Below are positions 21,118 through 47,833 of a stretch of DNA of 64,000 nt, piece after piece. Positions within the stretch are counted from its first letter, which is position 1. Every line of letters starts with the position of its first letter. A model generated the notes under the pieces. The model did no database searches. It had not been told where the DNA came from and was given only the letters and a program-made list of their open reading frames with translations. The stretch is from Pseudomonadales bacterium (lineage in GTDB: Bacteria > Pseudomonadota > Gammaproteobacteria > Pseudomonadales > Azotimanducaceae), in contig WLWP01000001.1 of NCBI GenBank assembly GCA_012103505.1, positions 2,542,001 through 2,606,000 of the forward strand, written 5' to 3'. Both the position numbers and the translations under genes were made by a program.

Positions 21118-22552
21118 TTAACGGGCGCGGTATTCGACTAATTGGCGTAGGAAAGGGGCCCACGCAAGACTTGTTCCGTTCTCCTTGATCGCTGAACTCA
21201 AGGCACGAACAACCTCGACATACTTATCTTCCTCGACAACGTTACGCGTCTCGTCAGGGTCGATCTCGAGGTCATAAAGGACCTTTGCGTGTAAATCACC
21301 CTGTTCACTACGCCACTCTGTGTACCTGTATTGAGCGGTCCGAACAGATTCTCCGTCGATCCACCGAGCGAAACTCATATCTTTGCCTGTCACTACCGCT
21401 AACTGATCAACCCCGTCTAGCTTTTCTACAGAAGGCAGACCAGCAGCGGCGACAAGAGTTGGGAAGATATCCAGTGTGTCCGCCAGCCCTTCGCGCACAG
21501 CGGGATTCTCCCCTGGGATCTGCAACAACATCGGGATGCGCAGTGTTACATCAAACAAGCTGTGCTTCGTCCAAAGCGTATGCTCGCCGAGATTCCAGCC
21601 ATGATCACTAACAAGCAAAACAACCGGTGCTTCCTCTAACGCCTGGACTGCCACCATAATTTTACCAACCAGAGCATCGATGTAGCTCACAGACGCGTAA
21701 TACGCATGCTTTAGCTCTTTCGCTTGTGAATCCGGCAGTAATCCTTGGGACGGAATACCGGCGTACTGACGTCGCAGCTCTCCAGAATTGTGCAGACCAA
21801 GGAATGGGAAGCCTGCAGAGTTCGCAAAGGTGCTCGCGAGTTCGAATTCTTCACGCTCATAGAGCGCCCAGTACTTTTCCGGCGCTGTAAAAGGCAAGTG
21901 CGGCTTCCGCAATCCAACAGCCAGGAAGTACGGTTGCTGACCTTGGCTCAATCTAACCAAGTTACGCACGGCTTCCGCAGCGACAGCTGCCATCAGGGTA
22001 GGCACTATCTTCTACAGACAATCTTTCCGTTGCTGGTCCGAGCTTGTCAGTAAGCGGCCTGATATAGGCTTTTTGTAAGTCTTCATGTCGTTCTACTCTC
22101 GGCACGGGACTATGCCAACGACCTTCAGGATTCCAAAGACCCGCGCTCCATGCCCCAAAGCTGTCATCAGAGACATCGAAGATCTTACCTACGCCACGCG
22201 TGACATAGCCGTTTTGGCGAAAGTAGTCTGGCAGACTCACGGCATCTGGTACGTCTTCATCCAATCGAGAGTTGAAGGTGAGGAAGCGTTGCGTGCTCGG
22301 TTTGAGACCACCGAGCATCGCCGCGCGTGAGGCTCCACAGACAGGTACCACCGCGAACGCTTGATTGAAGACGATGCTCGCCTCGGCCAGGGCATCGATA
22401 TTCGGTGTTTGCGCTAGCTTGTCTCCATAGACGCCAAGGGTCGGACGTAAGTCATCTACAATGATCAGCACAACGCTCTGGCCTGCGTGAGTGTTGGAGA
22501 TCGAAACCCCAAACAAAACACAGGCGAGCCACTTGATGCGAGCAATGCTCAT
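21118..22552 (-). pseudogene. Exported sulfatase (iduronate-2-sulfatase-like), frameshifted near 21985
   Basis: Together two frames encode one formylglycine sulfatase of about 478 residues. The first part (22552 to about 21985) has a signal peptide (WLACVLFGVSISNTHAG), the metal-binding VLIIVDDLRP and the active-site motif VCGASRAAML, where the cysteine would become formylglycine. It runs to SAYPDG and then derails. The second frame continues AVAAEAVRNLVRLS, with GLRKPHLPF and VLLVSDHGWNLGEH, both conserved metal or substrate sites, to 21118. The break is at GGC|A|GCTGTC, one base too many or two too few. The ATG at 22550-22552 lies five bases after the stop of the upstream LLM gene. Confidence 0.83.
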
Positions 22553-22557
22553 TGTCG

Positions 22558-23576
22558 CTAACCGAGAACAAGCTCCGCGAATGTGCGTAGCTGCGCAAGG
22601 TTCTGGGTTGAAACAAGTAAAGAAGTGACAGGCGACTCCTGCCAAGGTTGCGCCTGTCTTTTATACGCTCAACGGATCCGACTAATGAGATTTCGTCAGC
22701 CAATTCCGTTGGGACCGCAGCTGCCGCTTCATCTTTCTTTCCCGCCAGAAAAAGGTCTTGAATCTCTTCTGCGGCTTCCGCGAAACCCATCCGCTGAACC
22801 AACTCGTTATGAAAGTTACGTGACTTGGCACCCATGCCGCCGATATACAGCGCCAAGTTTCGCTTAAGTGGTTCGAGCGCTTTCTCAACATCGTCGTTGA
22901 TAATGACACTAACGCCACACATGATTTCAAAGCCTGGTTTGGCGTGCGCTATTTGATCCGCATAAACCTCTTGGCGGTAAGGGGAGTAGTACAGTGGTAA
23001 CCACCCGTCTGCAATTTCTGCAGTCATAGCAACATTCTTCGGTCCTTCCGCGCCAAGGAATATGGGTAGCTCGTCGCGGTATGGGTGAGTAATCGACTTC
23101 AGGGGTTTGCCCAGCCCCCAAGCGCCGTCACCTGTATAGGGCAGCGGATAATGCTCACCAGCACTAACAACGGGTTGGTCGCGACGCAACACCTGACGAA
23201 TGATGTCGACATATTCGCGGGTTCGTGACAGCGGCTTGCCAAAAGGCTGGCCATACCAACCCTCAACGACCTGGGGTCCCGATACGCCCAGACCCAGAAT
23301 CATTCGACCGCCGGACAAGTGATCTAACGTCAAGGCTGCCATGGCTGTCGCAGTCGGTGCGCGCGCCGACAGTTGAGCGATGCCCGTCCCTAGGCGTATC
23401 TTTTCTGTATGCGCGCCGATCCATGCAAGCGGCGTGAACACATCTGAACCCCAAGCTTCTGCAGTAAAAAGTGCATCGTAGCCAAGCTTCTCCGCCTCTT
23501 GAGCAATTTCTACCATCTGTGGATTGGGACCTGCACCCCAATAGCCAGTCTGTAACCCTAGCTGCAAATTAGTCAT
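22558..23576 (-). pseudogene. LLM-class flavin oxidoreductase, frameshifted near its 3' end (about 22655)
   Basis: Luciferase-like TIM-barrel oxidoreductase, paralogous to the gene at 23878-24873; shared stretches include SGPQVVEGWYGQP, LGAEGPKNVA and AAEEIQ(D/N)LF. The open frame reads correctly from the ATG at 23576 to VERIKDR and then changes into unrelated sequence. In the neighbouring frame the true end continues QPWQESPVTSLLVSTQNL and stops with TAG at 22558-22560, closely matching the paralogue's ending WEKSPVTSLLVSVQD. A single base is missing within AGGCGCAACC. The sulfatase gene follows after five bases. The only fault is this indel, so the gene may be intact in vivo. Confidence 0.85.
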
Positions 23577-23645
23577 TCCCCGCCACCTTCTCTATCTCGA
23601 TTGTTTCCCTTATCGTACCAACAAATACCATCACAGCGAGAAGCC

Positions 23646-33737: not shown

Positions 33738-34559
33738 CTAAAGTATGTAGGCATCACCTGATGCTCGGACGGTGATCTCACTGATTGCAACGCCCCAAGG
33801 CTGATCCATCACATAGATTATCTGGTCAGCAAGATGCTCAGGATCGAGGGCATAATACTCAATATGATCAGGATCGGTGTACTCAGCAGGCAGATCTCCC
33901 GCCTGATGCGCTTGCATCAGCTGACTGTAGGCTGGTGCATTTTGACCGAGGATGCCAACGATCGCCTCCGGGTTAACAATACCTGCGCCGAGGTTCGTCC
34001 CAGGCACACCAGTTGGTTTAACCGTCGTCACCTTTATTTTGCCTTGAGCTTCCATGCGCAATGAGGATGATAGGAAATCGACCGCGGCCTTGGTCGCACC
34101 GTACACCCCAGCGCCAACCACCGGAAAATTGCCATAGATCGACGACAGGTTAATAACTTGACCTCTCCCCTGAGCAATCATTTGATCGTAAACCGCAGCG
34201 ATGCCATGCAATACACCTTTAAAGTTGATATCAACACAGCTTGTCCATGCGTCCATCGCTTTGTCATGATCGCTGTAGAACGCCAACGGCATGACCCCTG
34301 CGTTGTTAATCATCACATCGACTCGCCCCCACAACTCAACCGCTTGTTGCACCCCTCTCTTTAAATCGTCGAGCTGGGTAACATCTGCGACCGCGGTGTG
34401 CATGCCAGGAAATTCGTTGTCTAAAACTTCTAGGGCATCACGATCTACATCTAAGGCCAACACTTGCGCTCCGCGAGCGACACTTTTTTGCGCGACTAGG
34501 CGTCCGAAACCGCTGCCCGCGCCGGTGATAACGATTACTTTGTCTTTGAGGTGATCCAT
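33738..34559 (-). CDS. Short-chain dehydrogenase/reductase (SDR)
   Basis: Classical SDR of 273 residues. The cofactor motif is VITGAGSGFGRLVA, followed by ALDVD (Asp typical of NAD preference), INNAGVMPL, and the catalytic Ser-Tyr-Lys set in NLSSIYGN and VYGATKAA. The PTGVPGT stretch follows the active site. A C-terminal DPDHIEYYALDPEHLADQI segment is less usual. AAGGAACTGA precedes the ATG. It reads in the same direction as the neighbouring MFS and GFA genes. Confidence 0.9.
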   Translation of the reverse strand: MDHLKDKVIVITGAGSGFGRLVAQKSVARGAQVLALDVDRDALEVLDNEFPGMHTAVADVTQLDDLKRGVQQAVELWGRVDVMINNAGVMPLAFYSDHDKAMDAWTSCVDINFKGVLHGIAAVYDQMIAQGRGQVINLSSIYGNFPVVGAGVYGATKAAVDFLSSSLRMEAQGKIKVTTVKPTGVPGTNLGAGIVNPEAIVGILGQNAPAYSQLMQAHQAGDLPAEYTDPDHIEYYALDPEHLADQIIYVMDQPWGVAISEITVRASGDAYIL

Positions 34560-34580
34560 TCAGTTCCTTGGGGTCCCTAT

Positions 34581-34625
34581 GTTAATGGGGAGATTAATGG
34601 GGGGGTTAGTGAGGAGGTTAATGAG
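34581..34625. repeat. Degenerate 11-12 bp tandem array (about four units)
   Basis: Four consecutive G-rich units of 11-12 bp, of the form G(G/A)TTAATGGGGA with changes, fill most of the 82-bp gap between the SDR start and the GFA-protein stop. No hairpin is evident. It may be a slippage-derived array. Confidence 0.65.
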
Positions 34626-34641
34626 ACCATAAATAAGGTGC

Positions 34642-35043
34642 TTATTGAGAATCCATCTGCGGTACGCCCTCGGCCAACTCGACCCAATTTTGCTTAGTGC
34701 TACACCAAGCATGAAATTGCGGCTCGAAATCAGAGGTGTCATCCATGGTGCCAGACTTTAGAAAGACCGTATCTGGCTGCGAAGGGATCAGAGAATAGAT
34801 TGGGGAACCACAGGTCCCGCAAAAGTACCGCTCAACTTGATTGCCGCTTAGCGTGTCACCATCCATGTACAGGGTTGGTTCGCCTGTCATAGTGAATTCT
34901 GACCTTCGCACGCCGGCCAATGTAGAGAACGCAGAACCCGCTTGTCGCTGACAGTTTTTGCAATGACAAATACCAGTCATAGCCGGTGCGTTTGGAAATT
35001 CATACGATACTTGTCCGCAAAGACATCGGCCTGAGTAGCTCAC
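34642..35043 (-). CDS. GFA-family (Mss4-fold) zinc protein
   Basis: Small (133 residues) glutathione-dependent formaldehyde-activating/CENP-V-like protein. The zinc ligands are visible as GRCLCG (Cys7, Cys9), ICHCKNCQR (Cys26, Cys28, Cys31) and RYFCGTCGSP. Members bind zinc structurally and catalytically, and most have no proven reaction. Translation starts at GTG with AGGGAGAA seven or so bases upstream. It lies downstream of the acyl-CoA ligase gene on the same strand, 41 bp away. Confidence 0.9.
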   Translation of the reverse strand: MSYSGRCLCGQVSYEFPNAPAMTGICHCKNCQRQAGSAFSTLAGVRRSEFTMTGEPTLYMDGDTLSGNQVERYFCGTCGSPIYSLIPSQPDTVFLKSGTMDDTSDFEPQFHAWCSTKQNWVELAEGVPQMDSQ

Positions 35044-46364: not shown

Positions 46365-47027
46365 ATGGCGAACAAACTCCCAGAAGGCTTCAACTGGCAG
46401 GCGATAACGCCAGACGATTCACCGTTAACGCCGATGGATGTCCTCGCAGACGAACGACACAAGACCCTGGCAACCGCTAGCGTGTCGGAAGGCGAAGTTG
46501 CCTACAACTTTCGCAGTCAGATATATGACTACGCTACCGGCATTGAGCGAGAGACCGGAATGCAATTCGATTTGCTCGAGGTCGCACAAGAAAAGCCAGT
46601 CGCGCTGATTTTCGGCTCCTACACGTGACCGCCGTTTCGGGTTCAGTTAGAACCCTTGCATCAACTCTGGCAAAAGTGGCAGACACAGGTGGAATTTCTG
46701 GTGGTCTACATTCGTGAAGCCCATCCAGAAGAAGGTTGGGTAGTCTCTATGAACCGCGACGAGGGTATCGAGGTCAATGATCCGGCCACGAACGAAGAGC
46801 GGTTGGAAGTTGCCGCATCCTGCGCCATCAACATGAAGATTCGAATGCCTGTCGTTGTCGATGATGTAGATGACAATATCGCCGCTGCTTACGGCGCTTT
46901 GCCTGATCGACTCTATTTAGTCGACAAAGGTGGCAAGATCGCTTTTCAAGGCGATGAGGGACCCTGGGGCTTCGACCCCAATGCACTGGAGGCGGCCATA
47001 GAGAAACTTACGGGATCACCTAATTAA
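46365..47027 (+). CDS. Iodothyronine-deiodinase-like selenoprotein (TGA at residue 88 read as selenocysteine)
   Basis: A 220-residue thioredoxin-fold protein interrupted by one in-frame TGA (46626-46628). The flanks read GSYT-U-PPF, equal to the deiodinase active site GSxTUPxF, and the downstream frame continues without change in register: YIREAHPEEGW (His120, matching the conserved deiodinase histidine), PVVVDDV, ALPDRLYLV and GPWGFDPNAL. These match vertebrate DIO proteins along the whole C-terminal half, so the TGA is a coding selenocysteine and not a nonsense mutation. A SECIS-like hairpin follows. The first 70 residues have no signal peptide or helix anchor. Deiodinases remove halogen from iodothyronines using selenolate; bacterial relatives may be reductases of other substrates. 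The next gene overlaps its stop codon. Confidence 0.93.
46639..46655 (+). promoter_or_regulatory. Bacterial SECIS element (selenocysteine insertion hairpin)
   Basis: GGGTTC-AGTTA-GAACCC forms a perfect 6-bp stem with a five-base loop. Sixteen bases separate the TGA from the first loop base (46645), and G is the second loop base. Known bacterial SECIS elements lie in the reading frame just after UGA, with a small apical loop having a G among its first two bases, at a spacing of about 16-37 nt; this one meets each condition. It would bind SelB. The surrounding codons remain protein-coding (residues 92-97). Confidence 0.85.
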
Positions 47028-47833
47028 TGGAATTGAAACTATTGAAGTGCGATTGGGGCATGGAGCACTTAGGTGAAATGCCAGAGCGATTGCGCGCCTA
47101 CGCTGCAGCCGGATACGACGGGGTTGAGTGCGCCAACATCGGCATGGCACCAAACGAATTCAGTGAGTTAACCAACGAACTGGGACTAGATTACGTCGCC
47201 ATGATGTTCTGCGACGATGAAGATGCTTTCGCGACACAACTCGAAGCGGTCAAACAAACCCAACCAATTCTCATCAACTGCCATCCTGGGCGAGATTGGT
47301 TCGACCTGGAGCGAAGCACCCGGTTCTTTAATGAAGTCCAAGAAATGGCCACAACCATTGATACTCAAGTTGTGTTTGAGACGCATCGAACGCGGTGTCT
47401 ATATTCGCCCTGGAGCACAGAACGCATTCTCAACGCTCTACCATGGTTGCGCATAACCGCGGATTTTTCGCACTTTACCAACGTCGCCGAAAATCCGCTC
47501 ACCAAGCCGCCTTACAGCGACATGATGGATCTAGCCATAGAGCGCACGGATCACATCCATGCTCGAGTCGGCAGCCCACAAAGCGCGCAAGTCCCGGACC
47601 CGAGGGTTGGCGCGGGGTATCGATGGACCGAGCGTTTTGAGCGTTGGTGGGATCGAATTATCGAGGCTCGCCACGCAGAAAGTCGTCCGTTCCTGACGAT
47701 CAACCCGGAATTTGGCCCACCTCCATATCAACCGGTTTCGCCTGAAACAGAAGAGCCTCTTGCTGATATTGGCGATGTATGTCTTTGGATGACAGAACGC
47801 TTTCGATCGCGCTGGGCTGGCAGACTCGACTAG
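47027..47833 (+). CDS. Sugar-phosphate isomerase/epimerase-like TIM barrel
   Basis: Xylose-isomerase-like (AP endonuclease 2 superfamily) protein of 268 residues. Its metal site is seen in VVFETHRTR (Glu), ITADFSHF (Asp, His), HIHARVG (His) and INPEFGPPP (Glu). The start ATG overlaps the selenoprotein stop as TAATG, so expression is coupled to selenocysteine read-through of the gene before it. The family includes isomerases, epimerases and inositol-type dehydratases; substrate unknown. Confidence 0.88.
   Translation: MELKLLKCDWGMEHLGEMPERLRAYAAAGYDGVECANIGMAPNEFSELTNELGLDYVAMMFCDDEDAFATQLEAVKQTQPILINCHPGRDWFDLERSTRFFNEVQEMATTIDTQVVFETHRTRCLYSPWSTERILNALPWLRITADFSHFTNVAENPLTKPPYSDMMDLAIERTDHIHARVGSPQSAQVPDPRVGAGYRWTERFERWWDRIIEARHAESRPFLTINPEFGPPPYQPVSPETEEPLADIGDVCLWMTERFRSRWAGRLD

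Follow-up and report, generated by a model that had tools for sequence, protein, structure and literature searches.

The 64,000-nucleotide stretch analysed here (the window) comes from a Pseudomonadales bacterium whose assembly comprises 5.82 Mb in 21 contigs, 99.13% complete and 6.61% contaminated, and it corresponds to C6:2542001-2606000, where C6 is a 4.65-Mb contig. On its forward strand lies a 220-codon frame ending in TAA that is interrupted by one internal TGA at codon 88 and encodes a deiodinase-like protein (Table 1). When the TGA is read as selenocysteine (Sec, U), the translation has 220 residues with Sec predicted at residue 88, inside the motif GSYT-U-PPF. The list of open reading frames (ORFs) gives two pieces at this place, of 87 and 123 amino acids. 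An earlier reading made from the letters alone, the sequence-only reading, had proposed a single TGA splitting one frame, which an automatic caller would render as two truncated ORFs; the translation agrees with it, and contains the motifs that it had singled out, namely GSYT-U-PPF, His120 in REAHPEEGW, PVVVDDV and ALPDRLYLV.

Table 1. Features of the deiodinase-like locus and of the adjoining gene, in window coordinates (SECIS, selenocysteine insertion sequence)
Feature	Position	Strand	Evidence
Read-through deiodinase-like gene, 220 residues, predicted Sec88	46365..47027 (including stop TAA)	+	Translation with TGA as U; PF00837, 4e-33; purifying selection on both halves
In-frame TGA, predicted Sec88 codon	46626..46628	+	TGA in 14/14 loci; one TGA within the family match in 17 of 21 matching genomes of 195 relatives
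Predicted bacterial SECIS stem-loop, GGGTTC (AGTTA) GAACCC	46639..46655	+	Covariation; synonymous-codon null; fit to the bacterial SECIS model quoted in PMC13188914
Second ORF-caller fragment, TTG start, annotation artefact of the TGA	46656..47027	+	ORF list; 310/331 relatives among the matches listed also start beyond residue 88
His120 codon, counterpart of DIO3 His202	46722..46724	+	His in all 48 rows of alignment A2; DIO3 alignment
Cys153 codon, sole cysteine besides residue 88; proposed resolving thiol	46821..46823	+	Cys in 326/331 among the matches listed; predicted helix 143-157
Xylose-isomerase-like TIM-barrel gene, ATG sharing the last base of the deiodinase-like stop	47027..47833	+	PF01261, E 4.5e-7, 30.3 bits, just below the cut-off of 31.1

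The in-frame TGA is conserved. A scan of GTDB genomes returned 14 loci from 13 genomes, and codon 88 was TGA in all 14. They come from Pseudomonadales, other Gammaproteobacteria or Proteobacteria, one deltaproteobacterium, and two Chloroflexota and two Actinomycetota metagenome-assembled genomes, and the placements in distant phyla may reflect binning errors. Among 195 genomes near that of the window, 21 had a PF00837 match and 17 of these had one TGA within it; such matches were sparse in genomes drawn from the class (6 of 369) and from the phylum (10 of 398). The window's own genome has a single PF00837 match, with one TGA inside. Compared with the nearest locus, L021, which is 84% identical, the proportions of nonsynonymous (pN) and synonymous (pS) differences are 0.123 and 0.609 in the 43 codons upstream of the TGA and 0.069 and 0.782 in the 125 codons downstream, and four further relatives show the same pattern. 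Because pN is low relative to pS on each side of the TGA, both halves are kept as protein. One of the loci, L029 (UBA2168), belongs to Candidatus Azotimanducaceae, Pseudomonadales, according to its NCBI name. As separate observations, the PF00837 match of locus L038 (genome G190) contains one TAA at its very start, ahead of the recognisable domain, and L067 and L071, about 1.85 Mb apart in a single-contig genome (G626), are PF00837 genes that score equally and do not differ in domain sequence.

A hairpin of SECIS type follows the TGA. Its arms (46639-46644 and 46650-46655) form a 6-bp stem with an energy of -7.9 kcal/mol around the 5-nt loop AGTTA; the loop starts 16 nt from the TGA and has G at its second position, which is the geometry that the sequence-only reading had described. 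Every value falls within the bSECIS model, which calls for a loop of 3-9 nt with G in its first two positions, a stem of 4-16 bp, a distance of 16-37 nt from the UGA and an energy of -7.5 kcal/mol or lower (as quoted in PMC13188914). We searched for hairpins fitting this model over 25 distinct UGA loci, window included. Seven further loci had been removed beforehand because their contig was already represented, by the window or by a different locus; L059, with U-P-Y-C, fell outside this set as the motif search required PF or PPF after the codon. The loop started exactly 16 nt past the UGA in 21 of the 25 loci. In three more distant ones (L042, L055 and L061) the hairpin was located 4 nt further downstream, with the loop at 20 nt and a different loop sequence, and L030 had no perfect stem at the position. 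The threshold of -7.5 kcal/mol was reached by 18 loci, the window among them. Hairpin stability across the loci exceeds chance: the best hairpins averaged -8.05 kcal/mol. When each sequence was recoded synonymously 2000 times, with codon frequencies pooled over the same loci and without correction for relatedness, the average was -2.16 (sd 0.55), and the lowest of the 2000 null means was -3.99.

Covariation was assessed in 15 of the 25 loci, all of which have a loop of 5 nt at a common register; L030 was among them despite a broken pair. In the remaining loci the loop is 4 or 6 nt long or the element is displaced by 4 nt. Paired cells amounted to 96.7%, against 84.1% in shuffled alignments (0 of 500 as high; the shuffles ignore relatedness), and sliding the partner strand gave no more than 67.8%. 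Both sides had changed in four of the six stem pairs, and the loop read AGTT(G/A) in all 15 loci. Two Rfam searches gave no useful match: one was empty and the other produced a weak small nucleolar RNA match (E 2.6) on the opposite strand. In the whole window, three TGAs connect a pair of open frames (about 50 and about 60 codons or more, with little overlap with another long frame), and a SECIS-like hairpin accompanies just one, that of codon 88. The other two, within 33741-34757 and 22260-23591 on the reverse strand, have no SECIS-like hairpin and are probably ordinary stops.

The protein databases reflect the same codon. From the best 120 of 941, 503 and 1608 hits in our protein searches, 336 different proteins besides the query were left after removal of overlaps; we counted the 331 that carry the EAHP anchor and excluded the five without it. 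Among these matches listed, 310 of the 331 relatives start beyond residue 88, and residue 95 is the precise start in 276 of these. The codon for residue 95 is TTG in 16 of the 25 DNA loci and is located in the SECIS loop, so gene callers appear to take a codon of the SECIS loop as the start. In the full-length rows among the matches listed, residue 88 is usually Cys (14 rows), and Trp in four. Relatives show TGA or Cys at residue 88, where the sequence-only reading looked for Sec or Cys.

The genome carries the four genes on which that reading had made Sec insertion depend. Matches to selA (2.1e-145), selB (6.1e-120) and selD (7.1e-75), and to the tRNA-Sec gene selC with anticodon TCA (71.7 bits; gathering score 47), were all found on the 4.65-Mb contig that holds the deiodinase-like gene, which makes contamination an unlikely source of the Sec machinery. 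The genes selA, selB and selC are consecutive on one strand (C6:913659-916753), the tRNA match beginning about 37 nt beyond the end of the selB frame. As for selD, it makes up the C-terminal part of a 719-residue frame (L019:334-2493, contig C6); on visual inspection the N-terminal part resembles an FAD-dependent oxidoreductase, so that the frame reads as a SelD fusion. SelA scored above the cut-off in 13 of 17 near-relative genomes with the TGA form and in 11 of the 13 genomes that contributed the 14 GTDB loci, or in 19 of 24 UGA-form genomes once the overlap between both sets is removed. Since a SelA match was present in 109 of the 195 relatives of the window genome, this co-occurrence is weak evidence near the window.

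The read-through product matches PF00837 (T4_deiodinase) with an E value of 4e-33 and 115.1 bits against a cut-off of 27, and by sequence alone it retrieves mouse DIO2 (9h48; background in PMC11592359) and DIO3 (4tr3) at 3.9e-22. An AlphaFold2 model with a predicted local distance difference test score (pLDDT) of 93 has these same two enzymes as its best structural matches, 3 Z units above the next rows, and the predicted fold is that of a deiodinase. In DIO3 numbering (PMC7506546), the protein keeps the catalytic and loop-anchor residues S167, T169, U170, Y197, E200, H202, W207 and R225, and also P171, P172 and R260. It differs from the animal enzymes DIO1-3 (4tr3, 9h48) at C168 (Tyr86), H219 (Pro140), C239 (Met161), Y257 (Leu179), F258 (Pro180) and R275 (Glu198, at a variable position), in having the SECIS-like hairpin within the coding region, and in having no membrane anchor evident by eye, as no hydrophobic stretch was seen in the N-terminal part. 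Three of the changed positions are those of the hormone-binding residues, and neither His219 nor Tyr257 nor Arg275, or an Arg or Lys near the latter, was found: the counterpart of His219 is Pro in 48 of 48 alignment rows, that of Tyr257 is Leu in 26 and Trp in 22, and that of Arg275 varies, with Glu in 20, Pro in 16 and Arg in 3. The DIO1 counterpart of H219 is reported to be important for binding the substrate, and in simulation the hormone carboxylate is held by Y257 and R275 (PMC7506546). With the catalytic core kept and the residues of the hormone pocket replaced, the core chemistry could therefore persist without a hormone pocket.

Neither of the two cysteines under debate in animal deiodinases is present here, Tyr86 and Met161 being in their place, and the protein's Cys153 stands 65 residues past the Sec, within a predicted helix (143-157). 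Counted from the EAHP anchor, Cys occupies position 153 in 326 of the 331 proteins among the matches listed, including all 310 that start beyond residue 88; of the other five, two (P0262 and P0264) have a Cys one residue off, and three have none (one Ser88 row and two Cys88 rows). In a smaller set Cys153 was present in 227 of 228 rows, a Ser88 row being the sole exception, which had suggested a strict coupling of residue 88 with Cys153; that claim was dropped after P0259, P0260, P0262 and P0264. In PtGPX5 the resolving Cys is found in the corresponding helix, the alpha-D equivalent, and Cys239 of DIO3 in the loop after it (PMC7506546); by our reading of the alignment, helix 143-157 would be this alpha-D equivalent. 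The protein thereby resembles the atypical 2-Cys peroxidases (PtGPX5, E. coli thiol peroxidase), the resolving Cys of PtGPX5 lying in a helix like that of Cys153, but it is closer to deiodinases in sequence and fold and has a deiodinase-type loop.

The second redox residue also sets the protein apart from the bacterial deiodinase-like family as reviewed in 2022 and 2026, which is listed as UxxC (PMC9312934, PMC13188914): the motif here is U-P-P-F, without the UxxC cysteine. It is doubtful that UxxC defines the family, because the table of the 2008 survey gives no motif (PMC2398784). A divergent UGA relative with a PF00837 match from the same bacterial family (L059:1501-1809, reverse strand, genome G436) does have U-P-Y-C, in accordance with the UxxC of both reviews, and has no Cys in the helix equivalent to that of Cys153; the distant Cys relatives L036, L037, L056 and L057 have neither the UxxC Cys nor the helix Cys. 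These sequences would be consistent with two placements of the resolving thiol, other relatives doing without one.

We built an unrooted tree of 44 rows, made up of 33 of the 35 motif-search rows, nine chosen database proteins and the two animal enzymes, mouse DIO2 and DIO3; L034 (partial), L071 (duplicate) and L062-L065 (missed by the motif search) were left out, and several branches are long. The window pairs with L021 (100/98) and is nested among Sec forms, and DIO2 and DIO3 lie outside the 34-row bacterial set that contains the window (97/95) and that includes one CPVF row, L067. The starred branches require the Sec label to change at least three times; gain or loss of Sec therefore happened on more than one occasion. 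Two Trp rows group with the TGA locus L033 (97/91), which suggests that they are translations with UGA as Trp.

Downstream, the TIM-barrel gene is possibly co-transcribed with the deiodinase-like gene. Among the loci compared, it stands beside the gene only in L021, where it is 91% identical. In two genomes of one related genus, a cytochrome P450 gene is directly 3' of the deiodinase-like gene (L044:2257-3474 and L049:251-1468), and L049 also has a nitroreductase-family gene upstream; in L053 a glutathione S-transferase and a ring-hydroxylating dioxygenase are neighbours of the gene, and in L031 TauD adjoins it. The scan covered 30 proteins picked by hand from the ORF lists and not all neighbours. 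We drew no conclusion on the substrate from gene context, as the TIM barrel recurs only in L021 and, apart from the P450, no other recurring partner was seen among these proteins.

Conservation across the UGA, the covarying hairpin and the presence of selA, selB, selC and selD in the genome lead us to predict that the gene is translated as a 220-residue selenoenzyme; the selenoprotein proposed by the sequence-only reading is strongly supported by the hairpin, the machinery and the TGA or Cys at residue 88. We propose, with a probability of roughly 0.72, that Sec88 is inserted at the UGA of a deiodinase-fold selenoenzyme, where Sec88 likely attacks a non-hormone substrate and Cys153 likely resolves the oxidised selenium. 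SelB would read the hairpin and deliver the Sec-tRNA. The selenolate of Sec88, aided by a network of S85, T87, Y115, E118, H120, W125 and R146, would then perform a two-electron reduction, for example the removal of a halogen from a small aromatic compound, the substrate being non-hormone and possibly haloaromatic; Cys153 would resolve the selenenyl intermediate, and cellular thiols may re-reduce the Se-S bond. The parts of this proposal differ in strength. Insertion of Sec at codon 88 is close to certain, Cys153 as the resolving thiol is somewhat favoured, and dehalogenation, as opposed to general peroxide or thiol chemistry, has slightly less than an even chance.

Several observations weigh against this proposal. 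The Sec at residue 88 is a prediction from sequence. Five of the 24 UGA-form genomes show no SelA over the cut-off, perhaps because they are incomplete; seven of the 25 distinct UGA loci fall short of the -7.5 kcal/mol limit; and the window hairpin taken alone gives p = 0.037 in the synonymous recoding. Position 153 is Ala in the Cys88 rows P0259 and P0260, which means that some Cys forms can do without the distal Cys. The distal Cys239 of DIO3 was judged too far from the Sec for direct resolution (PMC7506546), and for human DIO1 no positive evidence of a disulfide with the distal Cys is reported (PMC9141512). Beyond the TIM barrel of L021 and the P450 of L044 and L049, no recurring neighbour that would indicate a substrate was found among the 30 hand-picked proteins.

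The strongest alternative keeps the selenoprotein and changes its chemistry, with Sec88 reducing hydroperoxides and Cys153 resolving, as in a peroxidase similar to peroxiredoxins or glutathione peroxidases, or in a general thiol oxidoreductase. The odds are somewhat against it: the deiodinase-type EAHP..GW loop is kept, and DIO2 and DIO3 lead the structural matches, although the latter is a weak argument since function does not follow from a common fold. A genuine iodothyronine deiodinase with thyroid hormone as its substrate would account for the PF00837 match, the predicted fold, the U-P-P-F motif and the Y-E-H-W-R network, but the replaced counterparts of His219, Tyr257 and Arg275 make it highly improbable and we set it aside; the position of DIO2 and DIO3 in the tree, outside the set of the window, says little on function by itself. 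The deiodinase label of the sequence-only reading stands for the predicted fold and the catalytic core, and thyroid-hormone deiodination is the part that is unlikely to hold. The two ORFs in the list, and the relatives consisting of the second half alone, could also be explained by a pseudogene or a sequencing error, with the TGA as an ordinary stop and the halves as remnants, or by a second half that is a gene of its own; this is hardly credible, and we reject a pseudogene, frame error or pair of genes on account of the conservation across an identical TGA in many genomes of several phyla, with a covarying hairpin and Cys at the same residue in relatives. Finally, UGA read as tryptophan or by leaky read-through, for which the Trp at residue 88 of P0011, P0061, P0261 and P0264 might speak, has practically no chance, as the Trp rows beside L033 fit translation of UGA as Trp, Cys is the usual residue in the full-length rows, and the genome carries tRNA-Sec and SelA, SelB and SelD.

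A deiodinase-fold selenoenzyme in a bacterium is no surprise in kind. From the Sargasso Sea, four Sec and six Cys deiodinase-like sequences were described in 2005, and it was suggested that they may have a redox role distinct from the conversion of hormones (PMC1088965); the Global Ocean Sampling survey of 2008 listed 22 selenoproteins, from 12 samples, together with 21 homologues that have Cys (PMC2398784); a fusion with an EF-hand has been reported (PMC9402790); and, according to the 2026 review, the functions of such selenoproteins are largely unknown (PMC13188914). The window gene shares with this family (PMC1088965, PMC2398784, PMC9312934, PMC13188914) the PF00837 match, a bacterial SECIS just past the UGA, the occurrence of Sec and Cys forms and a presumed redox role, and the U-P-P-F form may well be present among the sequences of 2005 and 2008. 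In open-licence PMC papers we found no report of a tested bacterial member.

The selenoprotein gene is real and well supported, and with bacterial deiodinase-like selenoproteins known since 2005 it is the redox pair that adds something. What public protein sets contain of the subfamily is mostly its second half (310 of 331 among the matches listed). In this subfamily both of the debated animal cysteines are gone and one near-invariant Cys is placed at a fixed distance from the Sec, which makes it a clean and probably soluble system for how the oxidised selenium of a deiodinase gets resolved. It also lets one ask what the deiodinase fold acted on outside animals. One specific answer, which we consider unlikely, is that the U-P-P-F bacterial proteins dehalogenate small haloaromatics reductively, with no need of flavin, corrinoid or metal, by joining a deiodinase active site to a peroxiredoxin-style Sec88-Cys153 pair; if true, they would show the working of the deiodinase active site before animals used it on hormones.
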